DNA of 64,000 bases from Acidaminococcaceae bacterium (GTDB lineage: Bacteria; Bacillota; Negativicutes; Acidaminococcales; Acidaminococcaceae), in assembly GCA_022484685.1 (NCBI GenBank), contig JAKVKY010000004.1:1-64000 (forward strand), read 5' to 3'. The translations under genes and the position numbers were made by a program. Under the pieces are notes generated by a model that saw nothing but the letters and a program-made list of their open reading frames with translations, made no database searches and was not told the origin of the DNA. Positions 9,001 to 57,684 of the stretch are shown here, in pieces; position 1 is the stretch's first letter; the number at the start of each line of letters is the position of its first letter.

Positions 9001-9333
9001 AGTATATCAGCCTCCTGCAAAATTTAGGTTAAGCGGTGATATGACCCGGGTAAAATATTGATAAATGTATTATAACATACCGGCCGCACGGCGGAAATAT
9101 GTTTAAGAAAGGCTTAAAAATTTGCCGGGACTAAAGGTGAATTTTTACTGGTACTGAGGTCAGCCTCAGTACTAAAAAAAAGTAGGCAATGTATAATAAT
9201 ACTGATATAATATGTTTGTTCATAAAATATGGTGACAGCCGGAAAAATTTAAAAGAGGAAACTAGGCAACTCGCTTTAAAAAAATCCTCCTGTTAACAAT
9301 ATTTTATGATAAGAATTTAGGGAGGGGATTTAT
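9001..9333 (+). promoter_or_regulatory. Intergenic promoter region of ompM-like gene
   Basis: 333 bases without a gene. It holds palindrome copy 2 (9151-9172), then AT-rich sequence with TATAAT-like boxes (about 9190-9215) that probably include the promoter of the OmpM gene. A long 5' leader of about 100 bases would follow. The left end holds the ribosome site of the divergent DUF6125-like gene. Confidence 0.5.
9151..9172 (+). repeat. Palindromic intergenic element, copy 2 of 4
   Basis: A perfect 9-bp inverted repeat, GTACTGAGG-TCAG-CCTCAGTAC, upstream of the OmpM-like gene. Copies at 1956, 36801 and 57003 share the same sequence and orientation. Confidence 0.75.
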
Positions 9334-10566
9334 ATGCAAAAATCTTTAGTAGTAGCTCTGGCTTTGGCCATGGGGGTCAGCGCAACGGCGTTGGCGGCCA
9401 ATCCGTTCAGCGATGTACCGGCAGGCCACTGGGCTTACGGCAGCATCGCCAAGTTAGCGGCGGCAGGCATCGTGGACGGTTACGGCGACGGCACTTATCG
9501 GGGCGACCGCCTGATGACCCGTTACGAGATGGCGCAGATTGTGGCCCGGGCCATGGCCAAGGGCGCTAATGTGGACCGTCTGGCCAGCGAGTTTGCTGAC
9601 GAGCTGGACAGCCTGGGCGTACGGGTAGCCAAGCTGGAAAAGAAGAGCGACAACGTCAAGATTACCGGTCAGGGGCGTTATTCTTACCAGGATATCACCT
9701 TTAAAGGCGATTTTGCGGATGCGCATGCTTATTCTCAGGTCCTGCGGTCCCGCATCTGGTTTACCGGCGCGGTCAATGACAACTGGAATTATGTAGGCAT
9801 GCTGCAAAATATCCAGGACTTTAATGATAACAAAGGCAATGAGACTACCGATTTCCAGCGTGCTTATCTGCAGGGACGTTTGGGCGGCGCCCAAATTACC
9901 GCCGGCCGCCAGGATTTTACCATCGTAGACGGCAACCTGTACGATACCCGTATGGACGGCATCAAAGCCGAATACGGTGATAAGGTGAAAGTAGGCGCCT
10001 ATTACGGACGTCCTACCGATCAGGAAAGTTGGTTTACTTATCAAAAATTCTGGGGCGCTTATGCCAGCGGCGATTTGGGTAAGCTCAACCTGAGCGCAGG
10101 CTATAATAGGTTTGTGGATGGTTATGAAACCGATACGTCCCTTGCTACGACAACTATTGATGATAAATTAGCAGATAGCGATACCGTGTGGAATGTAGGC
10201 GCCAAATATGATTTTGGCAAAGCTTCCCTGGGCGCCATCTTCATGAAGACTAATATCACGCAGCCGGATACGTCCAATACCGACAAGGCCTTGATTGTTA
10301 CCGGCACCTTGCTGGGGGCCGATGCAGCGAAACCTGGTAGCTGGGGTCTGTGGGCCAAGTACTACAACCAGGGTTACGGTACGGTGATTGCGCATACCAT
10401 GAACGGTATTTATAGCCTAAACGGGTTCCAGGGCTGGGGCACCGGCGTAAATTACACGCTGGCTAAGAACATGGTGGCCGGTTTTGAGTACTATGATCTG
10501 AACCCGAAAGGTTCCTCTACCCAAGCTTACAAAACACTGTGGAGCGAATTGGTAGTAACGTTCTAA
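9334..10566 (+). CDS. OmpM-like outer-membrane porin with SLH domain
   Basis: 410 residues. A signal peptide of about 21 residues ends at ALAA. One S-layer homology domain follows (about 22-75: NPFSDVPAGHWAYGSIAKL, then GTYRGDRLMTRYEMAQIV). A short coiled segment (about 85-110) comes next, then a beta-barrel with alternating aromatic and polar residues ending in Phe (SELVVTF). This layout is the hallmark of Negativicutes OmpM, which tethers the outer membrane to cell-wall peptidoglycan polyamines through the SLH domain and forms a pore. A strong GGAGGGG lies before the ATG. It stands alone between its promoter region and a terminator. Confidence 0.93.
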   Translation: MQKSLVVALALAMGVSATALAANPFSDVPAGHWAYGSIAKLAAAGIVDGYGDGTYRGDRLMTRYEMAQIVARAMAKGANVDRLASEFADELDSLGVRVAKLEKKSDNVKITGQGRYSYQDITFKGDFADAHAYSQVLRSRIWFTGAVNDNWNYVGMLQNIQDFNDNKGNETTDFQRAYLQGRLGGAQITAGRQDFTIVDGNLYDTRMDGIKAEYGDKVKVGAYYGRPTDQESWFTYQKFWGAYASGDLGKLNLSAGYNRFVDGYETDTSLATTTIDDKLADSDTVWNVGAKYDFGKASLGAIFMKTNITQPDTSNTDKALIVTGTLLGADAAKPGSWGLWAKYYNQGYGTVIAHTMNGIYSLNGFQGWGTGVNYTLAKNMVAGFEYYDLNPKGSSTQAYKTLWSELVVTF

Positions 10567-35782: not shown

Positions 35783-36658
35783 TTACAGGTCCCGTAATTC
35801 CAGCTTACAATTTACAAAGGTGGTGCCGTATTTTTTCAGGCGTGTTACTTCCAAAGGATTGACATTCTCGAAAGTGCAGTCCTTAAAGGTAACCTGCTGG
35901 TTGACCCACCAGTTCTGGTCATAATTTTGGGCGGCCAGGGAATATTTGGCGGCGTAATCCGCCGGGTCGCCTTTGAGGTAAGTATGAACTTTACGGGTGG
36001 GGTCCACGCTGATCTGGCAGTTGTCAAACTCCAGGCCCTGGATCTTATCGCTGGTGTTCAGGACGCTGAAATTCCCGTTATGCACAAATTTAGTCCCCAC
36101 GAATTTAGTGTGGGTGACTTCGGACAGGTCTAAAAGATTATAGGTGCAGTGGTGGATATAAGAATCCTTGACTTCTAACTGATCCACGTATCTTAAGGTC
36201 AATCCGTTTTCGCCGCAGCCGTAGATATCCATCCTGTCAAATTTTATTTTTTCCGAAGCCTCCATGCGCAGCGCGTCGCCCTCGCAGCCTTTAGGCTGCT
36301 GTACGTGGCCGATGCTGAAATTTTGTAATTCCAGGTCGCTGCAGTCTTTGATCAAAAGGACGTCGCTGTCAGAGTAAGGAGAAAGCAGTTCCGTCTTGCC
36401 GGGACCGGTGGCGATAATTTTTAAATTATGCACGCCGGTGATGTACATGCGCCGTTCGTAAATATTTTTGGCGTTGCGGCTGGTAAAACCCAGAGCGTCG
36501 CTCAGTTTATAAACGCCCGGCGTCAGGAAGATGATCCTGTCGGAGCCGATACTATTTAACAGTTCCACCATGCTGGAGACGGTTATTTTTTCCACGGCCC
36601 CGGCGGTGCTGCCGCTCACAAACAGCAGCGTCAGTAACAAAACCAAAAACTTGGACAT
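35783..36658 (-). CDS. Exported right-handed beta-helix protein
   Basis: 291 residues from ATG 36658, chosen for GAGGAG 7 bases upstream and the signal peptide that starts there (SKFLVLLLTLLFVSGSTAGA). The body is a parallel beta-helix: repeated short strands with turns, such as LKIIATGPGKTELLSPYSDSDVLLIKDCSDLELQNFSIGHV. Asn ladders and a GxxG pattern are seen. Such proteins are often pectate-lyase-like or bind surface sugars, but I see no clear catalytic triad. It stands alone, convergent with trpD. Confidence 0.75.
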   Translation of the reverse strand: MSKFLVLLLTLLFVSGSTAGAVEKITVSSMVELLNSIGSDRIIFLTPGVYKLSDALGFTSRNAKNIYERRMYITGVHNLKIIATGPGKTELLSPYSDSDVLLIKDCSDLELQNFSIGHVQQPKGCEGDALRMEASEKIKFDRMDIYGCGENGLTLRYVDQLEVKDSYIHHCTYNLLDLSEVTHTKFVGTKFVHNGNFSVLNTSDKIQGLEFDNCQISVDPTRKVHTYLKGDPADYAAKYSLAAQNYDQNWWVNQQVTFKDCTFENVNPLEVTRLKKYGTTFVNCKLELRDL

Positions 36659-36800
36659 GGCCTGCTCCTCCCTTCGGTTACTTCTTAAAAAGGTTAACTT
36701 GTAAAAAATGTTAATCCCTAAAAATAAATAGCGGTAGAAACCTGCCCGCGGCGGCAGGTTTTTCTTTGTCATCTTCATTATAACCGCAAAGAAATCTGGC

Positions 36801-36824
36801 CGTACTGAGGCTGTCCTCAGTACG
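36801..36824 (+). repeat. Palindromic intergenic element, copy 3 of 4
   Basis: The longest copy: a perfect 10-bp inverted repeat, CGTACTGAGG-CTGT-CCTCAGTACG, about 75 bases before the GTG start of the Ydj-like operon. A TATACT box (about 36843) follows shortly after. Confidence 0.8.
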
Positions 36825-36898: not shown

Positions 36899-38014
36899 GT
36901 GGCTGATACTTCTGTTAGCTACAAATGCCCTAAGTGCGGCGCGCCCCTCAGTTTTTTGCCGGGGCACGACAAGGTTACCTGCGAATTCTGCGGTAGCGAA
37001 TATACTACTGCCGAGATGGAGCAGCTGTTTGCTGCTAAAGACAATCAGGCCGCGGCTGCCGGGGCTAAAGAAGCCGCCGGCGGTTCCGGGTGGGATACCA
37101 GTCAGGCGGGTACGGAGTGGCAGGCAGGCGAGACGGAGAAATTCCAAACTTTCGTATGCTCCTCCTGCGGCGCCGAACTGGTCACCGATGGCAACACCAT
37201 GGCCACCGAATGTGTGTACTGCGGCAATCCGACCATGCTGCCGCAACGTTTTGACGGTTCCCTGAAACCGGATTTTATCATTCCTTTTAAAAAGACCAAG
37301 GAAGAAGCCGTGGCGGCTTTGAAAGCTTTTTACGAAGGCAAGAAGCTGCTGCCGGATGCTTTTACCGCCCATAACCGGGTGGAAGCCATCCAGAGTTTGT
37401 ACGTGCCGTTCTGGCTGTTTGATTCTCAGGTCCATGCCCTGTTCCATTATGACGCCGCCAACGTGAAAATGTATCAGGAAGGCAACGACGACGTCAAGGA
37501 AACGGAACATTATAACTGCGTGCGGGAAGCCGACATCCAGTTTAAAAAGATTCCCGCCGACGGCAGCAAGAAGATGGACGACGACTACATGGACAGCATC
37601 GAGCCCTTCAATTACGAAGAGATGGTGCCCTTTACCACCGCGTATCTGACCGGCCATCTGGCGGATAAATACGACGTGACCGCGGAAGAAAGTGCGGTCC
37701 GCGCCGAGGCCCGGGTCAATGCCAGCACCAAGGCTATCATGGACGCCAGCGTGGAATTTGATACCGTTAATGTTACGGACAGCAAGATTGACAAGACCGG
37801 CGGCGACGTGAAGTACGCCATGGTGCCGGTGTGGATCCTGACCACCAAGTATGACGGTAAACCGTATACTTTTATGATGAACGGCCAGACGGGCAAATTT
37901 ATCGGCAGCCTGCCTACGGATAAAGGCAAGGAAAATAAATATATGGCCATGGCTTTTGGCGCCGTGCTGGTAGCCGCGGTCATCATCATTAACGTCGTCA
38001 GCAGATTATTATAA
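36899..38014 (+). CDS. YdjG-like zinc-ribbon membrane protein
   Basis: About 371 residues from GTG 36899, preferred because AGGAGG at 36885-36890 is 8 bases away; an upstream in-frame GTG overlaps the ribosome site. Two zinc ribbons open the protein: CPKCGAPL with CEFCGS (about 9-35), and CSSCGAEL with CVYCGN (about 85-110). A soluble alpha/beta region follows (IIPFKKTKEEAVAAL, QSLYVPFWLFDSQV, VPVWILTTKYDGKPYTFMMNGQTGKFIG), then one C-terminal membrane helix. B. subtilis YdjG has this type of build and works with YdjH, YdjI and PspA at the membrane. It is first in an operon and is related to the N-terminal part of the sensor protein at 44409. Confidence 0.85.
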   Translation: MADTSVSYKCPKCGAPLSFLPGHDKVTCEFCGSEYTTAEMEQLFAAKDNQAAAAGAKEAAGGSGWDTSQAGTEWQAGETEKFQTFVCSSCGAELVTDGNTMATECVYCGNPTMLPQRFDGSLKPDFIIPFKKTKEEAVAALKAFYEGKKLLPDAFTAHNRVEAIQSLYVPFWLFDSQVHALFHYDAANVKMYQEGNDDVKETEHYNCVREADIQFKKIPADGSKKMDDDYMDSIEPFNYEEMVPFTTAYLTGHLADKYDVTAEESAVRAEARVNASTKAIMDASVEFDTVNVTDSKIDKTGGDVKYAMVPVWILTTKYDGKPYTFMMNGQTGKFIGSLPTDKGKENKYMAMAFGAVLVAAVIIINVVSRLL

Positions 38015-38028
38015 AGGAGGTGGCAGAC

Positions 38029-38871
38029 ATGAAGAAACTTTGGAAAATCATCGCTTTAACCCTCGTAGTTGTTTTCGCAGTAGCTGCCATCGCCGCAGCT
38101 GCTCCGATTCCCATCGTGGATCCCAATAACGCCCTGACCAAGGCGGACACCAAGTCCCTGGAAGGACGCATCAAGGAACTGGAACGCAAGCATAATATCA
38201 ATATCGGCGTGCTGCTGCTCACCGTACCTAACGGCAAGCAAAGCGGCGCCGTGGCCTCCGGTTATCTGACCCAGAACGGCTACGCCAATGCCGTGAACGG
38301 CGGCGTGGTTTTACTGCTGGATTTGCAAAATCACGGCTGGTACGTGGCCACCGATAAAAAGATGGAGAAGGCCATTACCGCCGAGTACGGCGTCAAACGT
38401 CTGGGTACCAATATCGTGGCCAACATGAAAAGCAGTAGTAGTCCGGCGCCGGCCATCAGAAGTTTTTTAACCGGCGTGGATGAACTGTACGGTTATTATA
38501 AAACTAACGGCAAGGCCATGACCAAGGCCAACGAAACGGCAGCCGGCGCTGCCAAACAGGAGAGCGCGGCGGCTCAGGATAAATCCCCGGGCATTTTCAG
38601 CTACCTGGCCGGACTGGTGGCTTCCGTGGCCGCTGCCTTTGGTTATCGCAGCAACCTGCGGAGCAAGATGAGCAACGTAGCTACGGCCAATACCGCGACA
38701 GAATATGTGGATGAGGAAGGCTTGAACATGACCACGTCCACGGATGAATTTGACCATACGGATCTGGTACGTACGCCCCGGGCTAACAGTAAACCCCAGG
38801 AAACCAGGGACGATGTGGTGACGGAATCTCATAACGATGACAAGAGCAGTGGCGGCGGCGGTAAATGGTAA
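38029..38871 (+). CDS. TPM-domain (YdjH/YgcG-like) membrane protein
   Basis: 280 residues from ATG 38029 (AGGAGG 8 bases upstream). A signal or membrane helix (about 6-23) is followed by a TPM domain (about 28-150: IVDPNNALTKADTKSLEGRIKELERKHNINIGVLLLTV, then GVVLLLDLQNHGWYVATDKKMEKAIT). A second hydrophobic segment, near FSYLAGLVASVAAAFGY, precedes a polar tail ending in a glycine cluster, GGGGKW. TPM proteins are membrane-anchored and often sit with SPFH proteins or YdjG. It starts 15 bases after the YdjG-like gene. Confidence 0.85.
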   Translation: MKKLWKIIALTLVVVFAVAAIAAAAPIPIVDPNNALTKADTKSLEGRIKELERKHNINIGVLLLTVPNGKQSGAVASGYLTQNGYANAVNGGVVLLLDLQNHGWYVATDKKMEKAITAEYGVKRLGTNIVANMKSSSSPAPAIRSFLTGVDELYGYYKTNGKAMTKANETAAGAAKQESAAAQDKSPGIFSYLAGLVASVAAAFGYRSNLRSKMSNVATANTATEYVDEEGLNMTTSTDEFDHTDLVRTPRANSKPQETRDDVVTESHNDDKSSGGGGKW

Positions 38872-38914
38872 GCACGGCCCCGCCCATATCTTAAGACTAA
38901 GGAGGCGAATTCCT

Positions 38915-39994
38915 ATGCGAACCGGTAAACTTTTAGTGTTGACCTTGTTACTATGTTTGTTAAGCTGCATGCCTCTGCACAGTGAGGCGAAAGAAGCTGT
39001 GATCTTGGACACGGACATGGTGGACCTTTTTGATGACGGCGTGGCCATGTTGATGTTAGCCAAGTCGCCCCAGATTGATTTACTGGGCGTGACCATCGTC
39101 ATCGGCAACACCTGGGTGGAAACGGGTACGGCCAGCGCCATCCGGCAGCTGGAAGGCATCAACCGCCTGGATATTCCGGTAGCGGTAGGACTGAACCGGT
39201 TGACCCGGGCCGGACGGATTGAACATATGGCCACGGAGAAAAAGATGTTTGGCCGGGGCGCGGACCCCCATCTGGGCGCAGCCGGCTATCCGGAACCAAC
39301 GTCCTGGCAGGCGGCCTACCGGGCTAATTACCATGCCGAGCCTAAAGGACAACCCGTTAACGAACACGGCGTGGATTTTTTGATCAGGAACATTAAGGCC
39401 CGTCCCCACGAAATTACTATCGTTTCCATCGGCACCAGCGCCAACCTGGCGGCAGCTATCCGTCGGGCGCCCGAAATTGTGCCGTTAGTAAAACGGGTAG
39501 TTTATATGGGCGGCGCATTCTTCCAGCAGGGCAACGTGATGCCGGCGGCGGAATTTAATTTCTGGTTTGACCCGGAAGCCGCACGTACCGCACTGCGCGC
39601 TCCCTTTAAAGAACAAATCATTTTCCCGCTGGACGTGTGCGAAAAGATTCATTTTACCGCGGCCCGTTACCAGGAAGTCAAGAGTCACCTGCGTAACCCC
39701 CTGTTCCAGGAGATGTTCGCGCACCACTGGACCAAGGCGGCTTTTGACCAGGATAAAAATTATTACACCTTTGTCTGGGACGTACTGACGGCGGCCATGC
39801 TGGCCGATCCGACCCTGGTAACCGAAGCGCGCAGCTACCCGGTAGATGTAGATACCACCTACGGTCCTTCTTACGGACAATCCCTGGCTTTCAGGGGTTA
39901 CGGTCCTGAAGGCACCCAGACGGCCAAGATCGTTTTCAGCGTCGACCAGGATAAATTGTGGAAGATGATTGATAATCTCTGCGAGAGTTTATAG
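38915..39994 (+). CDS. Lipoprotein nucleoside hydrolase
   Basis: 359 residues from ATG 38915 (AGGAGG 9 bases upstream). The N-terminus has a hydrophobic run and lipobox LLSC, so it is probably an exported lipoprotein. The calcium-binding motif is the variant DTDMVDLFDDGVA, with extra residues compared with the usual DTDPGxDD. Further family features are VTIVIGNTWVETG, GADPHLGAAGYP, VYMGGAFFQQGN and AEFNFWFDPEAA. It should cleave the N-glycosidic bond of nucleosides outside the cytoplasm. It sits between YdjH-like and 5'-nucleotidase genes, so the two enzymes could take external nucleotides to free base. Confidence 0.88.
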   Translation: MRTGKLLVLTLLLCLLSCMPLHSEAKEAVILDTDMVDLFDDGVAMLMLAKSPQIDLLGVTIVIGNTWVETGTASAIRQLEGINRLDIPVAVGLNRLTRAGRIEHMATEKKMFGRGADPHLGAAGYPEPTSWQAAYRANYHAEPKGQPVNEHGVDFLIRNIKARPHEITIVSIGTSANLAAAIRRAPEIVPLVKRVVYMGGAFFQQGNVMPAAEFNFWFDPEAARTALRAPFKEQIIFPLDVCEKIHFTAARYQEVKSHLRNPLFQEMFAHHWTKAAFDQDKNYYTFVWDVLTAAMLADPTLVTEARSYPVDVDTTYGPSYGQSLAFRGYGPEGTQTAKIVFSVDQDKLWKMIDNLCESL

Positions 39995-40012
39995 TAAAGG
40001 CAGGAGGCAAAC

Positions 40013-41578
40013 ATGATGCGCAAACTTGTACAAAGTTTTTTACTCCTGGTCCTGGTACTGCTAAATTCCCTGGGCCTGGCCGCCGGTCTGGAACCGCTCA
40101 GTTTGCAGTTCCTGCTGGTCAATGATTTTCACGGCCAGATCCGCCAGGACGCGGAGGCGCCCGGAGCTTTAAAACTTCTGACCACGGCGGATATTTTGGT
40201 AAAAACTAATCCGGAAGGCAGTATCCTTATCGGCGGCGGCGATATGTTGTCCGGTACTTTGGACAGCAATGAATTTAGGGGACGCCCTGCCCTCGAAATG
40301 ATGAACGCCATGGGTTTTGTGGCGGATGCCTGCGGCAATCATGCTTTTGATAATAACGGCAAGGTGATCCGCCAGCAGGCTCACTGGGCCAAGTTCCCCT
40401 TCCTGGCCGCCAACATCAGGGACCGGGAGGGTAATTATGCCAAGCCGTTCCAGCCTTCCGTCCTGGTGACGAAAAAAGGCGTGAAGGTTGGCATCGTGGG
40501 ACTGGCCACCATGGAAACGCCGGTAAAAGCCACGCAGAGTAACATGGAAGGTTTTGTCTTTACGGATCCGGTGAAGGAAGGCAACGCGGCCATCGCCGCT
40601 TTGAGAAAGCAAGGCGCCCAGGTCATAGTTCTGGTGGCGCATATGGCTACCTCCCAGGCGAAAGATGGCAAGATTACCGGCGCTGAACTTCTGCCGCTGG
40701 TAGAAAAACTGGATCCGGTAGACGTGATCCTCAGTGGCCACAGCCATGAAGTAGTGGCCGGGTTTGTGACTGTTAACGGACGGCAGGTGCCGCTGGTACA
40801 ATCCGGCTGGGCCGGCAATAATGTGGCCGGCGTCAGAGCTGTGTACGCTCCGGATTTGCAGGCCCTGACCCAGGTGCAGCCGTTTATGCAGGGCACTGCT
40901 AACACGGTACCCGCGGTGGATCCCAAACTGCAAAAACGCTTAGAGAGTTTCTTGACCTCGGTGGATAAAAAATACCGGACGCCGCTGGCGACCAACGTCA
41001 GCACTTTAGTCAGCGACCGCTGGGATCCCCAGGCTTCTGCCTGCGCCGATGTCTTTATGGATCTGCTGCGCCAGGAAACCGGCGCCCAGGTGGCGCTGTA
41101 TAATGGCGGCGGTTTCAGGTCCGAGCTGCCCGCAGGCGACGTGACCCAGGTCAGCATCATGAATGTCTTCCCGTTTAACGGCGTAGTGTATACCGCCGAG
41201 CTGAAAGGCAGCGACCTGAGAAAAGCCGTGGAACACGGGCTGGACAATAAGAAATATGGTTTCCTGCGTTTTTCCGGCCTCCAAGTAATTGGCAGGGTGG
41301 ACCTGCCCGAAGGCCAGCGCATCGTGGACTTGAAGCTCAGCGATGGCACGGAGGTAAAAGATGACCAGCTGTATAAGATCAGTACCAACGATTTTCTGCT
41401 CAGCGGCGGTGATGATTACAGCATGGTGAAAAATGCCACGCAGGTGGTGAAAAAAGGTTTGGAAGTGCCGTTCATGAAGAAGGCGCTGCAGAAAAAGCAG
41501 AAGCTGGATTATCATCCGGATAACCGGTTGCAGATCGTCGGCGGCAGTACCGCTGGTTCTGTGCAGCATCATAAGTAA
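40013..41578 (+). CDS. Exported 5'-nucleotidase/UshA-like metallophosphatase
   Basis: 521 residues (start ATG 40013 or 40016, both near AGGAGG). A signal peptide covers about 1-25. The metallophosphatase domain has FLLVNDFHGQI, GGGDMLSG, GNHAFDNNG and LSGHSHEVVAG (about 35-265). The C-terminal nucleotide-binding domain has YNGGGFRSELPAGDV, VFPFNGVVYTAEL and TNDFLLSGGDDYSMV. It removes phosphate from extracellular nucleotides. The product nucleosides suit the hydrolase encoded 18 bases upstream. Both lie inside the Ydj-like operon. Confidence 0.92.
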   Translation: MMRKLVQSFLLLVLVLLNSLGLAAGLEPLSLQFLLVNDFHGQIRQDAEAPGALKLLTTADILVKTNPEGSILIGGGDMLSGTLDSNEFRGRPALEMMNAMGFVADACGNHAFDNNGKVIRQQAHWAKFPFLAANIRDREGNYAKPFQPSVLVTKKGVKVGIVGLATMETPVKATQSNMEGFVFTDPVKEGNAAIAALRKQGAQVIVLVAHMATSQAKDGKITGAELLPLVEKLDPVDVILSGHSHEVVAGFVTVNGRQVPLVQSGWAGNNVAGVRAVYAPDLQALTQVQPFMQGTANTVPAVDPKLQKRLESFLTSVDKKYRTPLATNVSTLVSDRWDPQASACADVFMDLLRQETGAQVALYNGGGFRSELPAGDVTQVSIMNVFPFNGVVYTAELKGSDLRKAVEHGLDNKKYGFLRFSGLQVIGRVDLPEGQRIVDLKLSDGTEVKDDQLYKISTNDFLLSGGDDYSMVKNATQVVKKGLEVPFMKKALQKKQKLDYHPDNRLQIVGGSTAGSVQHHK

Positions 41579-41613: not shown

Positions 41614-43011
41614 ATGGGACTTATTAAAGCGATTCAGGGAGCTGTGGGCGGCGTCTTATCCGACCAATGGCGTGAGTACTTTTACTGTGAGGGCATGGGT
41701 GCGGATGTGCTGGTCATGAAGGGCATGAAGCGGATCAGCAGCAAGGACCGCAGTTCCAATACCAGCGGCGAAGATAATATTATCAGCAACGGCTCCATCA
41801 TTGCCGTGAACGACGGCCAGTGCATGATTATCGTGGAACAGGGCAAGGTGGTGGAAGTGTGCGCCGAACCCGGCGAATTTACCTATGATAAATCCACCGA
41901 GCCGACCGTACTGTACGGTGATTTGGGCCAGAACGTGGTGGACGTGTTCAAGAAGATCGGGAAACGTTTTACCATGGGCGGCGACACCGGCAAGGACCAG
42001 AGAATTTATTTCTTCAACACCAAGGAAATTGTGGGGAATAAATACGGCACCCCCAGCGCGGTACCGTATCGGGTCGTAGACAGGAACGTAGGCCTGGATG
42101 TGGATATTGCCATTAAATGTTTCGGCGAGTACAGCTACAAGGTTATCAACCCCATCCTCTTTTATACCAATGTGTGCGGCAACGTGGAGGAAGATTACCG
42201 CCGGGACCAGATTGACAGCCAGCTGAAGACGGAACTGTTGACTTCCCTGCAGGCGGCTTTCGCCAAGATTTCCGACCTGGGCATCCGTTACAGCGCGCTG
42301 CCGGGACACACCACGGAAATTGCCGACGCGCTGAACCAGGTTTTGAGCGCCAAATGGAAAGATCTCCGCGGCCTGCAGATTGTTTCTTTCGGCGTCAGCA
42401 GCGTCAAGGCCAGCGACGAAGACGAAAAGATGATTAAGGAGCTGCAACGCAGCGCAGCTTTCAGAGATCCCACCCTGGCGGCGGCCAACCTGACCGCGGC
42501 CCAGGCGGATGCAATGAAGCTGGCAGCGCAGAACAGCGGCGGCATGGGCGCAGCCTTTGGCTTTATGGGTATGAACATGGCGCAGCAGGCCGGGGGCATG
42601 AATGCCCAGCAGCTGTATAACATGGGTCGTCCGCAAGGCGGCGGTCCGGGACCGGGTATGCCCGGCGGCGCACCTCAGGGCGGCGCTCCGGCTCCTCAGG
42701 GTGGTTACGGTATGGCGGCCGGTGGTGCGGCGGGCGGTTGGGATTGTGCCTGTGGCCAGAAAAATAACACGGGCAAATTCTGCAGCTCCTGCGGCAAACC
42801 GAAACCGGAAGCGGTTCAAGGCTGGACCTGTCCGAAATGCGGCGCGGTGAACCAGGGTAAATTCTGCCAGCAATGCGGCACGCCTAAACCGGCAGGGGAA
42901 CCTTTGTATAAATGTGATAAGTGCGGCTGGCTGCCGCCGGATCCCCATCATCCGCCCAAGTTCTGTCCGCAGTGCGGCGATCCCTTTGATGATAACGACG
43001 TGCAAAAATAA
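41614..43011 (+). CDS. YdjI-like SPFH protein with C-terminal zinc ribbons
   Basis: 465 residues, no signal peptide. The first about 290 residues form an SPFH/virion-core-like domain (MGLIKAIQGAVGGVLSDQWREYFYCE, then ISNGSIIAVNDGQCMIIVEQGKVVEVCAEPGEF). A Gly/Ala/Met/Gln-rich linker (about 310-370) leads to three zinc ribbons (CACGQKNNTGKFCSSCG, CPKCGAVNQGKFCQQCG, CDKCGW...FCPQCG). B. subtilis YdjI is an SPFH protein of this type, needed to place YdjG, YdjH and PspA at the membrane. It ends the Ydj-like operon; a stem-loop follows. Confidence 0.87.
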   Translation: MGLIKAIQGAVGGVLSDQWREYFYCEGMGADVLVMKGMKRISSKDRSSNTSGEDNIISNGSIIAVNDGQCMIIVEQGKVVEVCAEPGEFTYDKSTEPTVLYGDLGQNVVDVFKKIGKRFTMGGDTGKDQRIYFFNTKEIVGNKYGTPSAVPYRVVDRNVGLDVDIAIKCFGEYSYKVINPILFYTNVCGNVEEDYRRDQIDSQLKTELLTSLQAAFAKISDLGIRYSALPGHTTEIADALNQVLSAKWKDLRGLQIVSFGVSSVKASDEDEKMIKELQRSAAFRDPTLAAANLTAAQADAMKLAAQNSGGMGAAFGFMGMNMAQQAGGMNAQQLYNMGRPQGGGPGPGMPGGAPQGGAPAPQGGYGMAAGGAAGGWDCACGQKNNTGKFCSSCGKPKPEAVQGWTCPKCGAVNQGKFCQQCGTPKPAGEPLYKCDKCGWLPPDPHHPPKFCPQCGDPFDDNDVQK

Positions 43012-43066: not shown

Positions 43067-43257
43067 AGGTTTTGTGGCGGTAGGCGGTCTTTCCGGGCCC
43101 GGGATTTCTTCCTGTACTTTTAAATTAAAAACGGTTGTTTAGAAAGCCCATCCTGTATTAAAAAAATTACAAGTATAGCATAATCTAAATAGTATAGTAT
43201 AATATGAATAAGAGAAGTCAAGAGCAACAGAAAAATAAAATACAGGGGGGAAGCATT

Positions 43258-44355
43258 ATGTTACGACACCAGGGGAGGCGTCTGACAGCGGCGGTCGTGA
43301 CCGCAGCACTACTGGCAGGTTTTGGGGCGGTGGGCATGGCCGCAGCAGCGGAAGTGCAGCCGGAGGAACAGGAAGATCCTCCAACGGCGGTGGTGGAGAA
43401 AAATGTGCACGGCTTTACCGTGGACGGTAGTTTCCGTTATCTGTACGGGCAGGGACATTTTGAAGGGGAAAGTTTAGCGCGTACAGCGGGCGGGAAATAT
43501 GCCATGACTCCTTTCAAGGAAATGATGATCATGCAGACCCTGCGGACGCGGCTCTATGCCAACTATCATTTTGATAAGAACTGGAAATTTATCACCGGTG
43601 TGGAAGACAACCGGGTGTTAAACGACCAGTCCTTGACGGATACGGCGCATATTTTCCGGTTCTTTGCCGAAGGCACGTATCCCCATGCCAAATACCGGGC
43701 GGGGCGCTTTGGCTACAAGGTGGAAGACGGTAATACCCTGGATACCACCGTGGATGGCGTCCGGGTCGGTTTTGGTCCGGAGGAAAAACGGGCTTCTGTT
43801 TTCTGGGGCCGGCTGGGTTCCAGCTTTAACCGCCGGGAAGGCGTGATCGTGGATGCGTACCGGGAATGGGAAAAATGGTACGCCACCGCCAGCTATTTTA
43901 ATTTCCGCAATCATGCTCACGATGCGGGGAGCTGGGATAAGCAGGAAGTTTTTTCCGAAAGCCTGAACTATAAATTTACCCCGGATATTTCTACCGGCAT
44001 CGAATTTTTGCAGGCTAACGGCAGCGACCGGAACGAGGATGTGGGCCACGACCATGGTTTTGTCTGGGCCCTGCGTTATAAAAATTATGATTATCACAAA
44101 CCCGGCACCTACAGGATCCAGCTGCGCTACTATCGGGAACCTGCCGCTGCCGTTATTACCCATACCATGAACGCCTGGCCCGGCTATTTCCGCCACATGG
44201 GTTTTGAAGGCGCCGGCGCCAGCTTCGAGTACGTGCTTTTTAAGGGCGGACTTTTGACGGTAGAAGGTTATGATCTGTGCAATTACCGGGACCAGCAGTA
44301 TCTGAGCGACTTCCGGCAAAAAGTTTTAGGCGCGACGCTGACCCTGGGATTTTAA
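43258..44355 (+). CDS. Outer-membrane porin-like beta-barrel protein
   Basis: 365 residues from ATG 43258 (GGGGGG upstream). A signal peptide ends near MAAAAE (about 30). The rest is beta-barrel with alternating residues and many Tyr, Arg and Gly, e.g. FTVDGSFRYLYGQGHF and LRTRLYANYHFDKNWKF. It ends in Phe (LGATLTLGF), the outer-membrane insertion signature. Unlike the OmpM gene it has no SLH domain. A TATAAT box (about 43196-43201) shows its own promoter after the YdjI-like gene. The sensor gene starts 53 bases later, so they may share a transcript. Confidence 0.85.
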   Translation: MLRHQGRRLTAAVVTAALLAGFGAVGMAAAAEVQPEEQEDPPTAVVEKNVHGFTVDGSFRYLYGQGHFEGESLARTAGGKYAMTPFKEMMIMQTLRTRLYANYHFDKNWKFITGVEDNRVLNDQSLTDTAHIFRFFAEGTYPHAKYRAGRFGYKVEDGNTLDTTVDGVRVGFGPEEKRASVFWGRLGSSFNRREGVIVDAYREWEKWYATASYFNFRNHAHDAGSWDKQEVFSESLNYKFTPDISTGIEFLQANGSDRNEDVGHDHGFVWALRYKNYDYHKPGTYRIQLRYYREPAAAVITHTMNAWPGYFRHMGFEGAGASFEYVLFKGGLLTVEGYDLCNYRDQQYLSDFRQKVLGATLTLGF

Positions 44356-44408: not shown

Positions 44409-47400
44409 ATGGGGACGATAGAGACGCTGGCCCTGCAGTGTGAAAAATGCGGCGGCGCCATGTATGCCGACCAAAAAACTGCCAGTTACCACTGTCCTTA
44501 CTGCGGCAGCTCCGTGCCCTGGAGTGACGAAAATTATTACCGGGCGCTGCCGGTGGGTTTCCGGCATCAACCGGTCCAAGTTATCGACGGCCTGTTAAAG
44601 CTGGGCCATGTGGAAATCGCCCGGCCGCTGCCGCAAGTTTTTCCGCAGCTGCTGAGTAAGGAATACCGGCTGCTGAGCGTGGCAGAAAAATTAGCTTTGT
44701 GGGATACGACGACCGCTCAGGCTTTTGCCGGCGCCTTTACCCTGAAATTTAACTGTCCGGCGTGCGGCGCTGCGGTTACGGGAGATTCTACCCAGAATAT
44801 TTTTACCTGTCCCGCCTGCGGTAATAAGTTCGGCCTGGCCGAAGCTCTCAAGCCGGGGGCGTATAAAAAGGAATACGTGATGGGCGTAGGCGCGGAAAGC
44901 GTTCCCGCCCGGGCTATCCCTTTCAGGATCACGCCGGGAGAAGCGCAAAGTGCCGCCCGGGAACTGGTGCATACGTACCCGGATATTTTGGGCGGGCAGG
45001 ATTTGGAAGCAAGGATTGCCCAAGATATGACGGCGGTGTACCTGCCTTTTTCCCTGGCCGATTTGAGTTTAAAGGTAAATGTGGACAGTAACCGGGGCGC
45101 CTTTATGACCTATCAGGAAATTCTGGACTGGGCCTGCCCGGAGACGACATTGTATGATGTGCGGCTTTTAGATTATCTGGATCCCTGGGATTTTAGCCAG
45201 GTGACAGCTTTTGATCCGGCTTTTGCGGAAGGCGTCTTTAAGGTGGCGGCTACCGCCCATAATGTTTCCCGGCCGGAGGTTATGGATTATGTACTGGCGG
45301 GCCGCATCCCGCAAACCCTGCAGGAAACTTTTAAATTAACGAAGACAGAAATTACGGCTTGTGCCCGGGATTTCCGGCAGCATAAATCCGGTTCGCTCCT
45401 GCTGCCCGTCTATTTTGTAGATAATGATTCCGGGAACAGGGACCAGGATAAACAGGTACGCCTGGCGGTTAACGGCCAGACCGGCAAAGCTGCGGCGGTG
45501 GTCTTGCAGAACGCAGCCGGCAAGTCTTCCTTGCTGGGAGACGTGGCCGGTGCTTTGCTGCGCCGCTCTGATACCGAAGTTTATCGTACCGTGACGCCTA
45601 AAAATCACCAGCGCCTGTCCGCGGAAAGTACCATCCGCATGGCACCGGTACCGGTACGCAAGATAAAAGCACCGTTCCTGCATCAGGTGCTGCCTTTAGA
45701 ACAGGCTGTGCAAAAACACGGCTTAGCCAAACTGTGGGGCCTGCTGCAAAGTTGTTTGCTCATCGTGCTGCTGACCCTGGTTAATCTTTGGCTGCCGGCC
45801 CAGACTTTAGGCGCGCCGGCACCGCTCCTTTATTATGACAACGTACGGGGAGACAGTTATGCTGACGTGATCAAGGAAACGGTGACCCTGCCGCTGACGC
45901 TGCAGCCGCGCAGCTCCCGCTTTATCAGTACCCTGACGCAGGATGCCTTTGGGATTGAAGCTTTTGGCCCTCAGGCCCTGATACTGAAGCAGGATAATGA
46001 TTATTTCTGGTATCCTCAGTATCAGGCTACGGTAGCTTTGGCTGTCCGGGAAGATATCGGCGCCATTACCGGCTGGGAAGATGTGCTGAAAAGTAATAAC
46101 AGGGTGGCGCTTACGGAAAGGCAGCCCTTTTTTGCCTACCTGCTCATGGGCCTGACCTACGGTTTGTCCGGGACCTGGGATACCGGCGCCGCCATGGACT
46201 ATCTGCAGAAGTTACAGCAGGAAGGGCGGCTGGACATAGACAGCCGTTATGGTAATAGGTCCATTTTAGGACCGGGGCGGCATCAGGCTCAGGCGCCTAT
46301 CCGGATCATGTTTGACTATGAGATCGCCCAGTTAAACCAGGCGGACGGGCATTATAAAATCGTCATCCCCAGGGAAGGAACCTTAACTTTTACCAAAGGT
46401 TTGCTGACCAAGAAACCTTTATATTTTAATAACCATAAACTAGCTGCCAGTCTGGTAGCACATGGTTTTAGGCCGGTGCCCGCCCTGCAGGCTCTGCTTC
46501 CGGACCAGGTCAGTCCCCTGTACCCGAAAGACAGCGCTTACCATGTGGCTTCCAACATTACGGATCCGGAAGAATTCCATAATATTGCCGACAATCTCAA
46601 CGCCCAGGTCCGGCGTCAGGTGTACGGCCTGCGCCTTTTTGCCACGGCGGACGGTTTTGAACACTATTTTTCCTATTACGTTTTGTTAGCCGTGACCGTA
46701 CTGCTTTTCTCGGCGTTTATTCCCAACATCCTGCAGCCCGGCGTGCGCCACGGGCTCATGGGTTTGTGCCTGACCATCGTCCTGCTCATCGTCATCCGCG
46801 TCATGAAGCTGGGCTTTAGCTCTGATTACGAGCATTTAGTCCGCTGGTGCTGGTACGCTTATTATTTAGGCTTCGACCTGTTGGGCTTATTCCTGCTGTG
46901 GATCGCCTGGGACATGGATAAACCGGCGGAAGTTTACCGGCCGCCCCGGTGGTGGTACGGTCTGGCCGTCCTGGCCGGTCTGGTGCAGCTGTTTGTTTTC
47001 ACCAACGACTACCACCAGCTGATCTGGCAGTTCCAGCCGGGGTTCGTGGACAGTAACGATATTTATACTTCCAGCTGGCTGCTCTACGCGATTAGTATTT
47101 TCTATCTGGCCATGATGGCGGCGGCCACCGGTCTTTTAATCTATAAGGCTTTACGCAATACTTTTTTCCGTACCAAAGTGATTCTGCCGGTAACTGTACT
47201 TTTAGGTTATTTCTTTTACATGTATGGTTACAACAGATGGCTGTTTTTCCAACAGACGGAACTTATTTTTACCACCTGTCTCGTCCTGGACCTGTTTGCC
47301 TTGTGCGGCGCGCTCACCGGTCTCTTTACGGTGAATAAGAACTATGTGGGTATTTTTAAGGCCGCTTCCCTGGGCATGCAGATTGCAGATGCGGATGGTA

Positions 47401-48188
47401 AGATTGTGTATGCTTCCGGCAAGGTGGCGCCTGCCGGTCCTGATGTGGTCATCCACCGGCAGGAAATTACCGCCGGCCAGGTCATCTGGTATGAGGACGT
47501 GAAAGAACTGAATGAGCTGAAGCGCCGGCTCCGGCTGACCACGGAGGCTCTGCAGCGTTCCCAGATGCTGCTGGCCCGGGAAGGCCAGATTCGCGGTTCG
47601 TACCTGGAACTGCGCATGCGCAACCAGCTATATGACGAACTGGAACGGATTTTGGCTACCAAAAATAAAGATATCCTCAGCGACCTGCACGCCTTAAAAG
47701 ATACGGCCATCTCGCCGGAGCTAAGAAGGGCGTCGGTGTGTCACTTAAATATCCTGGCCTGCTTTTTAAAGAAAAAATGCGTCATGCTGCTGCACGGCAA
47801 AACCGGTAATATGGTGGACACCGCTTATCTGACCAACGCCCTGACGGAATCCTGCCGCTATGCCACTCAGGCCGGACTGGGCACCGCCCTGAAGACGGCG
47901 GTAATTTCCCAGACCTGTGGCAGCCTGCGGGCCATGTTCCTGTACGATGTTTTTGAAGAAATCCTGGAAACGGCTGTAAGCCGACAGGCGGAAAATTTGT
48001 TGGTACAACTGACGGAACAGCCGGATAAAACCATGAACTTAAGTTGTTATGTGGACGGGGACCGGGAAAAATTACTGGCCGCCTTGCAGGATCTGGCCGC
48101 CGGCACCCTGGCGGTGCTGAATAAAGCCGGCGCCCGTATCCAGGTCAAAGATCTGGATGACGCGGTTTCCCTGACGGTAAGCGTGTAA
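44409..48188 (+). CDS. YdjG-type zinc-ribbon/seven-helix sensor fusion protein
   Basis: 1259 residues from ATG 44409 (strong GGGGGG upstream). Order: zinc ribbon 1 (C11, C14, C29, C32); zinc ribbon 2 (C116, C119, C134, C137); a soluble region to about 420 that parallels the YdjG-like protein at 36899 (IPFRITPGEAQSAAREL, VYLPFSLADLSLKV, LPVYFVDN, VNGQTGKAAAVV); a membrane helix (about 443-463); an extracytoplasmic domain (about 470-745); seven helices (about 757-975) with NDYHQLIWQF, as in HisKA_7TM sensors; a PAS-like stretch; a coiled coil; and a kinase-like C-terminus. No ATP-binding N, G1 or G2 motifs are seen, so it is probably not a working kinase alone. A kinase and response regulator follow. 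I know of no described protein with this layout. Confidence 0.75.
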   Translation: MGTIETLALQCEKCGGAMYADQKTASYHCPYCGSSVPWSDENYYRALPVGFRHQPVQVIDGLLKLGHVEIARPLPQVFPQLLSKEYRLLSVAEKLALWDTTTAQAFAGAFTLKFNCPACGAAVTGDSTQNIFTCPACGNKFGLAEALKPGAYKKEYVMGVGAESVPARAIPFRITPGEAQSAARELVHTYPDILGGQDLEARIAQDMTAVYLPFSLADLSLKVNVDSNRGAFMTYQEILDWACPETTLYDVRLLDYLDPWDFSQVTAFDPAFAEGVFKVAATAHNVSRPEVMDYVLAGRIPQTLQETFKLTKTEITACARDFRQHKSGSLLLPVYFVDNDSGNRDQDKQVRLAVNGQTGKAAAVVLQNAAGKSSLLGDVAGALLRRSDTEVYRTVTPKNHQRLSAESTIRMAPVPVRKIKAPFLHQVLPLEQAVQKHGLAKLWGLLQSCLLIVLLTLVNLWLPAQTLGAPAPLLYYDNVRGDSYADVIKETVTLPLTLQPRSSRFISTLTQDAFGIEAFGPQALILKQDNDYFWYPQYQATVALAVREDIGAITGWEDVLKSNNRVALTERQPFFAYLLMGLTYGLSGTWDTGAAMDYLQKLQQEGRLDIDSRYGNRSILGPGRHQAQAPIRIMFDYEIAQLNQADGHYKIVIPREGTLTFTKGLLTKKPLYFNNHKLAASLVAHGFRPVPALQALLPDQVSPLYPKDSAYHVASNITDPEEFHNIADNLNAQVRRQVYGLRLFATADGFEHYFSYYVLLAVTVLLFSAFIPNILQPGVRHGLMGLCLTIVLLIVIRVMKLGFSSDYEHLVRWCWYAYYLGFDLLGLFLLWIAWDMDKPAEVYRPPRWWYGLAVLAGLVQLFVFTNDYHQLIWQFQPGFVDSNDIYTSSWLLYAISIFYLAMMAAATGLLIYKALRNTFFRTKVILPVTVLLGYFFYMYGYNRWLFFQQTELIFTTCLVLDLFALCGALTGLFTVNKNYVGIFKAASLGMQIADADGKIVYASGKVAPAGPDVVIHRQEITAGQVIWYEDVKELNELKRRLRLTTEALQRSQMLLAREGQIRGSYLELRMRNQLYDELERILATKNKDILSDLHALKDTAISPELRRASVCHLNILACFLKKKCVMLLHGKTGNMVDTAYLTNALTESCRYATQAGLGTALKTAVISQTCGSLRAMFLYDVFEEILETAVSRQAENLLVQLTEQPDKTMNLSCYVDGDREKLLAALQDLAAGTLAVLNKAGARIQVKDLDDAVSLTVSV

Positions 48189-48256
48189 AGTTTTTCTCGC
48201 GGTTTTTGGTTAGCCGTAACGCCGGTTAAGTTTGGCTTAAGAAAGGAGGAAGCAAG

Positions 48257-49669
48257 ATGCTGGGTTTGTATAAGCTGGGTAATCTGGCCCAGGTTGCTTT
48301 TATTGTCCTGGCTCTGGCCACCTTATTCCTCCACTGCTGTTTTTACCAGACAGCTTTGCCTTTGCGCCACCGTGATCCCTACCGGCATAAGTTCCTGGAA
48401 CTTTCCATCATGCTGCTGACCTTCGCCCTGTGTATGACCGTAAGCGCGCCCGTTAACCAGCTGGTTTTTGCCATGCCCGCCGCTACGAAATATGCGGAGC
48501 TGCGCTATATCGCCGGCGCTATTACCATAGTTCAGGCCTTGAGCTGGTACCACCGGCATGTGGGCGCGGAGCTGATCCTGCCCGCCGGCATTTTAATGCT
48601 GCCTGCCTGCGACGGGTTATCCCCCTGGAATTTGCTGGCAGCCATGGTGCTGTTAGCCGCCCGCAGTATCTACGGTATCCCCCGGGCCCGGGAACGCCTG
48701 CGCCACGAAGTGAGCAACGACAGTATTCATGAGGCTCTTAATACTCTGCCCACCGGCATCATGTTTGCCGACGGCAACGGCAGCATCATTTTAACCAATA
48801 CCCGGATGCTGGCGTTGATGCAGCGCTATTCCGGCAAACAGTTCCGCAATGCCAACACTTTGTGGCAGCAGCTGGAAAAGATTCGTTTTCCTTTGCTGCA
48901 GAAGCGGTGGGTGGGCGAGAAAATGTTGTTCCGGGTGCAGAACGGCCCCAGCTATCTGGCGGCCCGGCAAAAGATCAAGGCAGGGATGGACACGTATCAG
49001 CAGCTGACCATCACGGATGTGACGGACGAGGACCGCAGCGCCTTAAAACTGGAAGCGCAGTTAGAAACTTTACGGGCCGGCAGCAAGCAGCTGCGCGCAA
49101 CCCTGGACAACCTGGAAGCTTTGCAAAAACAGCAGACCCTGGCGGAAGTTACCAGCCAGATTCATGATCTGTTAGGCCAGCGTATCACCATCCTGCAGCA
49201 GCTTTTGAATAACCAGGATGCGCATAATTATGAGGATATGATCCCGCTGATGCAGAATGTGATGCAGGATCTGCGCAACGATGTGCGGGAAGACGCCCAT
49301 GTGACCCTGGAAAATATTGTGGCCACTTATGCCGCCATCGGGGTGACCATTACCCTGGCCGGCGAGCTGCCGGCGGAAAGAGAGATGGCGCAGGCTTTTG
49401 TCAGCATCATCCGGGAAGCGGCCACCAATTCGGTGCGGCACAGTCATGCGGACCTGATCCAGATCGTCATGACCCGGCAAAAAGGCAGACAGTATCTGCA
49501 GACCACGGATAACGGCATCGCCCCGGCGGGGGAGGTGCATTTTAGCACAGGACTGAACGGCATCCAACACCGTATCGAAAGATTAGGCGGCACCTTGACG
49601 GTGCAGGCCAAACCCAGATTTACCCTGCTTATAGAAGTTCCTGTACCCCGGACCGGGACCCAGGCATAG
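48257..49669 (+). CDS. NarL-type sensor histidine kinase
   Basis: 470 residues. Six or so N-terminal helices (about 10-150) are followed by a PAS-like domain (about 160-265) and a dimerisation helix with the HDLLGQR motif (His303). The ATPase domain has IIREAATNSVRHSHAD and DNGIAPAGEVHFSTGLNGIQHRIERLGGTL. Strong AAGGAGG precedes the ATG. It sits 68 bases after the sensor fusion gene and 59 before the response regulator, so it is the likely kinase of a three-part system. It has no large extracytoplasmic domain of its own. Confidence 0.88.
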   Translation: MLGLYKLGNLAQVAFIVLALATLFLHCCFYQTALPLRHRDPYRHKFLELSIMLLTFALCMTVSAPVNQLVFAMPAATKYAELRYIAGAITIVQALSWYHRHVGAELILPAGILMLPACDGLSPWNLLAAMVLLAARSIYGIPRARERLRHEVSNDSIHEALNTLPTGIMFADGNGSIILTNTRMLALMQRYSGKQFRNANTLWQQLEKIRFPLLQKRWVGEKMLFRVQNGPSYLAARQKIKAGMDTYQQLTITDVTDEDRSALKLEAQLETLRAGSKQLRATLDNLEALQKQQTLAEVTSQIHDLLGQRITILQQLLNNQDAHNYEDMIPLMQNVMQDLRNDVREDAHVTLENIVATYAAIGVTITLAGELPAEREMAQAFVSIIREAATNSVRHSHADLIQIVMTRQKGRQYLQTTDNGIAPAGEVHFSTGLNGIQHRIERLGGTLTVQAKPRFTLLIEVPVPRTGTQA

Positions 49670-49728
49670 CACCCGGTGCCGGAAAATTTGCAAAGGAGGC
49701 AGCGGCTGACGGCAAAGCTGCGCACACA

Positions 49729-50349
49729 ATGGTTAGACTTTTAATCGTGGACGACCAGAAGATACTTTTAGATGCCCTGACCAATGCTTTAAGCAAAGAA
49801 AAGGAAATTACTATCGTAGGCAGCCTGACGGTAGCCGACGTGGCGGACGTGGCCTGCGCCCGTTTGCGTCCCAACCTGGTCCTGATGGATATTTGCACGG
49901 AAGGAAAAGTCAGCGGCATCTTTGCCGCCGACCGCATCAAAAAAAAATATCCGGACATCAAGGTCATGCTGATGACCGGATTTCCGGAACTGAGTTTTAT
50001 CAAACGCGCCAAGGAAGTGGGCGTGGATAGTTTTATTTATAAAAATAGTTCGATGGCAGAATTTGTACAGTGTATCTTTGCCACCATGGCCGGGAAGGGC
50101 ACTTTCCCGGAAGCGGACACCAGCCACGGTTTTGGCGACGGGGAATGTCCTTTGACGCCCCGGGAGCTGGAAATCCTGCGGCTGTTCTGCAGCAACCATT
50201 CCCGCAAGGAGATGGCCGAAGCTTTGCATATTACTACCAGCACTATTAACTATCATATCAATAATATGCTGACGAAAACCGGCTATAAGAATCTGATGAG
50301 CCTGGCCATGGAAGCTACGAATAAAGGCTATATCAAAGCCGGCATCTGA
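49729..50349 (+). CDS. NarL/LuxR-type response regulator
   Basis: 206 residues. The receiver domain starts MVRLLIVDDQKI, with phospho-acceptor Asp54 (NLVLMDICTEG) and Lys near SFIYKNSS. The C-terminal LuxR helix-turn-helix (about 140-200) has LTPRELEILRLFCSNHSRKEMAEALHITTSTINYHINNM. It should be phosphorylated by the kinase upstream; targets are unknown, but the porin and Ydj-like operon are the obvious candidates. The ribosome site AAAGGAGG is about 30 bases before the ATG, and a GCAGC/GCTGC hairpin lies between them. Confidence 0.9.
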   Translation: MVRLLIVDDQKILLDALTNALSKEKEITIVGSLTVADVADVACARLRPNLVLMDICTEGKVSGIFAADRIKKKYPDIKVMLMTGFPELSFIKRAKEVGVDSFIYKNSSMAEFVQCIFATMAGKGTFPEADTSHGFGDGECPLTPRELEILRLFCSNHSRKEMAEALHITTSTINYHINNMLTKTGYKNLMSLAMEATNKGYIKAGI

Positions 50350-57002: not shown

Positions 57003-57026
57003 AAACTGAGGCCGCCCTCAGTACGG
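57003..57026 (+). repeat. Palindromic intergenic element, copy 4 of 4
   Basis: ACTGAGG-CCGC-CCTCAGT followed by ACGG, matching the copies at 1956, 9151 and 36801 in sequence and orientation. It lies about 120 bases before the secreted protein gene at 57148. Confidence 0.75.
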
Positions 57027-57147: not shown

Positions 57148-57684
57148 ATGAAACTTTACAGGAAACTGGCTCTCACGGTGTGTGCCGTGTCGCTGCTGAC
57201 CCTGACGGCGCAGCCGGTGGCTCAGGCAGGCTTTAATATCGGCGGGATCCTGAACAAGCTTCCCGGCGTCTCCACGGAAAAGGGTACTGCCGGCAGCCAG
57301 GGCAAGAGCGGTAACCGCTACGAGGCGGCTACGTACAAGGAACCCCAGATGGTGAAAAAAGACAGCATGGGTTACAGCGCCAGCGGTCCCGGCAGGCTCT
57401 TCGGCCATGTCTATTATGAAGGTGGTAAACCGGGAGCCAACGTCAAATTGCTGCTGACCTCGGAAAATGTGGATATCGATGGGAATATCTGCCGGAACGA
57501 TGCTTATTATGTGACGACCACTAACGGTAACGGTGATTTCAGCATCCCGGTGAAGACCGGCTTGTACGGCATCGTGGCCTGGAGCGGCACCTGGATCGGC
57601 ACGGTCAACCATTATTCCGCGGATGATACGGCGGCGGACTGCAAACTGACGGACCGGAAGAAAGAGATTGTCTTTGAACATTAA
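57148..57684 (+). CDS. Small secreted protein with GFNIGG motif, copy 1
   Basis: 178 residues. AAGGGGGAAGG lies before the ATG. A signal peptide ends near AQAG (about 27), giving a mature start GFNIGGILNKLPGVS. A Gly/Ser/Lys-rich stretch leads to a beta-sandwich-like region (GRLFGHVYYEGGKPGANVKLLL, then TTTNGNGDFSIPVKTGLYGIVAW), which resembles carboxypeptidase-regulatory or transthyretin-like folds. Function unknown. It is followed at once by a paralogue with a frame break. Palindrome copy 4 lies upstream. Confidence 0.7.
   Translation: MKLYRKLALTVCAVSLLTLTAQPVAQAGFNIGGILNKLPGVSTEKGTAGSQGKSGNRYEAATYKEPQMVKKDSMGYSASGPGRLFGHVYYEGGKPGANVKLLLTSENVDIDGNICRNDAYYVTTTNGNGDFSIPVKTGLYGIVAWSGTWIGTVNHYSADDTAADCKLTDRKKEIVFEH

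Follow-up and report, generated by a model that had tools for sequence, protein, structure and literature searches.

A pseudokinase receptor, a HisKA_3 kinase and a NarL-type regulator probably form a three-component system controlling a Ydj-like membrane module

The window analyzed here, a 64,000-nucleotide stretch of DNA from an Acidaminococcaceae bacterium, encodes a receptor with a predicted pseudokinase tail, a histidine kinase and a NarL-type response regulator (the trio), which probably constitute a three-component system that activates the Ydj-like module through a palindromic operator. The membrane receptor, with a binding-protein-like part outside, seven helices and a pseudokinase inside, would read an envelope or periplasmic cue and control, most likely through pairing, the catalytically complete HisKA_3 kinase, which would then phosphorylate the regulator. 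We infer that the regulator is the protein that binds the palindrome, whose centre lies some 43 nt before transcription starts with a -10 box but lacking a -35 box, and that it activates rather than represses; its targets would be the SPFH, YdjG-like and TPM genes of the module, the exported nucleotidase and nucleosidase, the porin and other secreted proteins. The promoter-linked palindrome at the trio and Ydj genes is a new finding of this analysis, and no published description of the arrangement was found in the open-access literature. The receptor is part of a fusion protein, and the features of the trio are as follows.

44409-48188, + strand: open frame of 1259 codons encoding the fusion protein
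44409-45746, + strand: cytoplasmic YdjG-like double-zinc-ribbon part, residues 1-446 (alignment, profile-profile match)
44439-44504, + strand: zinc ribbon 1 (C11 C14 C29 C32), invariant in alignment
44754-44819, + strand: zinc ribbon 2 (C116 C119 C134 C137), invariant in alignment
45732-45788, + strand: signal anchor, residues 442-460, with the fusion joint at its start (hydropathy, alignments)
45819-46613, + strand: extracytoplasmic type-II periplasmic-binding-protein-like domain, about residues 471-735 (Pfam, PDB profile)
46677-47318, + strand: seven-helix region, residues 757-970 (hydropathy)
47406-48185, + strand: PAS-like linker and predicted pseudokinase tail without the phospho-His and N-box residues (alignments)
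48257-49669, + strand: HisKA_3/NarL-type histidine kinase with H303 (H-box), N391, D418-N-G and G-rich motifs (domain searches, alignments)
49729-50349, + strand: NarL-family response regulator, recognition helix TSTINYHINN (domain searches)

The kinase matches HATPase_c (E 8e-5) and the UhpB model, with H-box, N-box and G boxes present, and the regulator combines a receiver domain with a GerE helix-turn-helix (E 8e-15 and 2e-12). All 20 aligned partner kinases retain the H-D pair and the N-box Asn, and the D/N-x-G motif is found in nearly all of them, one being obscured by masked bases. The receptor tail matches the start of the DHp/ATPase region of the neighbouring kinase with an E value of 5e-4 in one comparison (probability 33 %). 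It has Tyr at the phospho-His position, lacks Asn in the N-box and shows no recognizable G1 motif. In 32 of 32 aligned receptor relatives, drawn from several families of the class and from elsewhere in the phylum, Y, S, F or some other residue stands in place of the phospho-His, and the Asn of the N-box is absent. Since both boxes are lost throughout these relatives while the partner kinases keep them, the alignments identify the tail as a pseudokinase by descent rather than by local decay.

Upstream of the trio lies an operon of Ydj type, preceded by the operator and, on the other side of it, by a divergent gene.

35783-36778, - strand: secreted beta-helix protein whose transcription runs away from the 36804 operator; its start is probably further in
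36804-36821, no strand assigned: operator ACTGAGGCTGTCCTCAGT (ACTGAGG-CTGT-CCTCAGT), upstream of the YdjG, TPM, hydrolase, nucleotidase and SPFH genes, accompanied on each strand by a -10 box at a distance of 21 nt
36899-38014, + strand: stand-alone YdjG-like zinc-ribbon membrane protein (profile-profile match)
38020-38871, + strand: YdjH-like TPM-domain protein (PF04536, E 5e-11)
38837-39994, + strand: nucleoside hydrolase, apparently exported (domain search)
40013-41578, + strand: 5'-nucleotidase, apparently exported (domain search)
41614-43011, + strand: YdjI-like SPFH/Band-7 protein with C-terminal zinc ribbons (domain search)
43204-44355, + strand: putative outer-membrane barrel, called a porin in the initial annotation; its homologues adjoin the trio in most relatives, and it has no Pfam match

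YdjG-like genes are encoded together with SPFH and TPM proteins both in the window and in the loci of relatives. The pspA-ydjGHI operon of Bacillus subtilis is a membrane-stress module in which YdjG has two zinc ribbons, YdjH a TPM domain and YdjI an SPFH domain with a zinc finger (PMC8581546, PMC11237479), and which brings PspA to membranes (PMC8581546). The domain types of YdjG, YdjH and YdjI are alike in the two systems, whereas here an exported nucleotidase and nucleosidase are inserted in the operon, and no match to the PspA/IM30 family was found in the 82 %-complete genome in a search with positive controls. Control also differs, being assigned to sigma-W for pspA-ydjGHI and here, as proposed, to a three-gene signalling system. 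The nucleoside hydrolase and 5'-nucleotidase genes (38837-41578) lie inside the Ydj-like operon and have the same operator in other genera. An Rfam search of positions 34000-64000 returned nothing.

The pattern ACTGAGG-N4-CCTCAGT occurs four times in the window, against 0.1 expected. The three further copies, found by pattern search, are each followed by a gene for an exported protein.

1958-1975, + strand: operator with 1 mismatch, before a secreted BamE-like protein (2036-2569)
9153-9170, + strand: operator before an SLH-porin (9334-10566)
57005-57022, + strand: operator before a secreted protein (57148-57684)

At all four sites (1958, 9153, 36804 and 57005) a -10 box lies 21-22 nt downstream, and the -35 position reads GTACGG or GTACTA, with no -35 box. 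The 36804 palindrome was also considered as a terminator; this was ruled out because the flanking genes diverge and -10 boxes stand 21 nt away on both sides. A whole-genome search for the palindrome with a -10 box at fixed distance gave 10 strand-matches at eight places, and the reversed-pattern control gave 0. Further copies of the palindrome lie on contigs C2, C3, C5 and C6 of the same genome, and the genes downstream of the sites in this genome encode mostly exported proteins. The four promoter-linked palindromes in the window, taken as 1957-1976, 9152-9171, 36803-36822 and 57004-57023, define a candidate regulon of exported proteins. No operator was found directly before the fusion gene. 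The SLH-porin has a match in Sporomusa.

Candidate cues for the receptor are the state of the envelope or a ligand of its outside domain, the latter suggested by the nucleotidase and porin genes in the predicted regulon. By hydropathy the fusion has a single helix (442-460), an outside loop of about 296 residues and seven helices at 757-970. The outside domain spans about 265 residues. The copy in the window protein gives a weak SBP_bac_6 match (E 0.0015-0.003), and a profile of the family retrieves sulfate-binding proteins from the PDB (1sbp, E 4e-5). HisKA_7TM (PF16927) is matched by 3 of 26 receptor family members (best E 4e-5) and not by the window protein; no MASE3 was found in the window's own genome. 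With an outside domain that resembles sulfate- and iron-binding proteins, and with a 5'-nucleotidase, a nucleoside hydrolase and a porin in the same predicted regulon, the system might sense a nutrient (a nucleotide, an oxyanion or a similar ligand) instead of envelope damage, the Ydj module being co-induced for transport or outer-membrane remodelling. We regard this reading as plausible though somewhat doubtful: several lineages that keep the trio, the operator and the Ydj module have only a shortened binding-protein domain or none, so it is not essential.

For the cytoplasmic N-terminus, hhalign of fusion residues 1-446 with the YdjG-like protein at 36899 gave 99.6 % and E 1e-23 over 316 columns. 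The IPF..T, Y.PF.L.D and NGQTGK blocks and both ribbons are in register between the two proteins, and both CxxC...CxxC ribbons are invariant across 14 homologues. Judged by these profiles, the homology between residues 1-446 and the YdjG-like protein extends over the full length. The alignment showed no C-terminal transmembrane segment in the stand-alone homologues of this part, and the first helix that follows it in the fusion belongs to the receptor half. Single-sequence structure prediction gave pLDDT 38 for residues 448-1259, and pLDDT 35 for residues 1-447 together with the window YdjG-like protein, both too low for a usable model. The initial annotation had described a 1259-residue protein joining two zinc ribbons and a YdjG-like soluble region, with blocks parallel to those of the 36899 protein, to an extracytoplasmic domain, a seven-helix module and a kinase-like tail without ATP-binding motifs, directly followed by a NarL-type kinase and a response regulator. 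Its description stands in each of these parts: the YdjG match it placed in residues 1-420 is recovered by sequence profile, the kinase and regulator are at 48257 and 49729, and the normal ATPase domain that it named as the alternative for the C-terminus is lacking, the tail being a predicted pseudokinase throughout the family.

In all relatives found, the N-terminal part is a separate gene of about 400-450 codons, with up to 54 % identity, and the receptor half is a gene of 520-860 codons. The separately encoded YdjG-like protein would here have become the cytoplasmic N-terminus of the receptor, through which the state of the module may be fed back. In relatives it is encoded apart but under the same operator, which precedes its stand-alone genes in five trio genomes, a pattern that usually marks a functional link; the fusion, for its part, preserves the zinc ligands and the NGQTGK block. 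Both points weigh against the N-terminal part being a passive relic of fusion with no role in signalling, which we consider unlikely even though many relatives, and indeed most trio systems, do without any such part and the fusion is unique to this genome. A further extension is tentative and also unlikely to hold in full: that a class-wide pseudokinase-receptor system controls a PspA-free module, and that in at least one lineage the YdjG-like protein absorbed by the receptor docks on this module and signals its occupancy, so that a feedback loop would close within a single molecule.

The fusion is known from one draft genome only, of 58 contigs and 82 % completeness, and no other protein joining both halves was found among 300 class, 59 family and 398 phylum genomes, samples that overlap; it is therefore not the general form of the system. 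This rarity, and a possible signal-peptidase site (PAQTLGA) after the internal helix, would fit an assembly or sequence artefact, or a cleaved product, with the halves separate in the cell as in relatives. Such an origin is nonetheless quite improbable, given that a single frame stays open across the joint, with a codon-position composition that is continuous and normal and with the two other frames interrupted by stops, and that in the alignments one parent naturally ends at the joint and the signal peptide of the other begins there. Second, longer zinc-ribbon YdjG-like proteins of 550-640 aa are encoded in L050 (2050-3738) and other genomes of genus g10 in family f1.

The trio itself recurs as a unit. 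Receptor, kinase and regulator are found together in nearly every receptor-bearing locus, also elsewhere in the phylum, and a gene-neighbour survey of the class showed that SPFH, YdjG-like and TPM genes usually lie beside them. Genes for a nucleoside hydrolase, a 5'-nucleotidase and a barrel protein are frequent neighbours there, barrel-protein homologues lying next to the trio in most relatives. No receptor relatives were found in viral contigs or in a plasmid search, and a search of genome contigs for relatives gave one distant match only. Trios outside the class (L195-L202) stand next to genes for large secreted proteins of up to 2341 aa, with SPFH and YdjG-like genes also close by in one case (L200).

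Across these genomes, a palindrome with a -10 box 20-23 nt downstream of it is found at Ydj-module, stand-alone N-terminal-part, nucleotidase, nucleosidase and secreted-protein genes. In other lineages the same place is taken by palindromes of a CCTGT...ACAGG class (CTGTCATttATGACAG, ACCTGTAgtaaatTACAGGT and CTGTACTttAGTACAG). Allowing up to 2 mismatches and a -10 box at 20-23 nt, sites were found in 26 of 29 trio loci and in 2 of 36 trio-less Ydj loci, with reversed patterns in 0 of 65, a count that is partly circular because the patterns were derived from trio loci. The tests that follow are less circular. In one family (f15), all eight trio genomes have 4-8 sites genome-wide (control 0), and of the 12 trio-less genomes ten have 0, one has a single site and another has three; two of the 12 share a genus with the eight trio genomes, and both have 0. 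In genome G191, a Ydj module about 200 kb from the trio still has the operator (L155). The operator also stands before the stand-alone N-terminal-part genes given above, and before nucleosidase or 5'-nucleotidase genes. In family f1 a looser motif search came near background, and two loci fell short of the threshold, with a half site only (L089) or a site only at 3 mismatches (L090). Perfect or near-perfect ACTGAGG palindromes also occur at L137:472 (G126) and G168:C7:48763, where no trio receptor was detected.

The operator class follows the recognition helix of the trio regulator. Where the operator is of the ACTGAGG class, the regulator carries Asn in the place of window N178 (HIN[NK]ML), and where it is of the CCTGT class, Ser or Gly; the residue before T in the helix is S in the former and mostly R in the latter. 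In this putative helix-operator code, the operator contrasted with the ACTGAGG class is CTGTCATTTATGACAG. Both helix states are present in family f1, each with the matching operator class. One prediction from this code failed: locus L044, expected from its Asn-type helix to carry ACTGAGG, has neither class. On the distribution of sites in trio and trio-less genomes and the covariation of helix and operator, the Ydj-like module is most likely an output of the trio system. The initial annotation had tied the signalling genes to the Ydj-like operon, proposing that the fusion would sense the same envelope state; the tie is supported, much more strongly than gene neighbourhood could do by itself, by the shared operator, the natural absence controls and the helix covariation, and its direction is refined, the operon most likely being under the system's control. 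That the palindrome belongs to another regulator, such as a repressor encoded elsewhere, with the trio merely travelling with the regulon, would suit the trio locus without a site but is very improbable, as site presence tracks the trio even within one genus, site sequence tracks the trio regulator's recognition helix, and placement at -43 without a -35 box suits an activator.

Several known systems resemble the proposed one. In UhpC/UhpB/UhpA of E. coli, a HisKA_3 kinase and a NarL-type regulator likewise answer to a separate membrane receptor, but UhpC is a transporter-like receptor whereas the window receptor is a predicted pseudokinase. RetS of Pseudomonas aeruginosa likewise combines seven helices with a periplasmic domain, and GacA belongs to the NarL family of regulators. 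In RetS/GacS/GacA, a kinase-like protein with a degenerate ATPase regulates a second, active kinase (PMC5992135). RetS keeps its H-box and receiver domains, whereas the window receptor has lost the phospho-His and N-box and has no receivers, and here receptor, kinase and regulator are in one gene cluster. FasBCA of group A Streptococcus comprises two sensor-kinase-like proteins and one regulator encoded together, and by two-hybrid assay FasB and FasC pair with each other and not with themselves (PMC12675982). The Fas kinases have six helices, no binding-protein domain and no zinc-ribbon fusion, and their target differs.

SPFH/zinc-ribbon/TPM modules are widespread and tied to membrane repair, and beyond sigma-W in Bacillus no control of them was established in the literature examined. 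The present analysis names a candidate receptor, kinase, regulator and short DNA site, each directly testable, in outer-membrane bacteria, a setting where envelope-stress control has been little studied. It adds a large natural set of predicted receptor pseudokinases, each paired with an intact kinase, in which a dead kinase may steer a live one. In one genus, a second, paralogous trio has the operator directly before its receptor gene (L091:8908 and L092:666), which suggests self-regulation.
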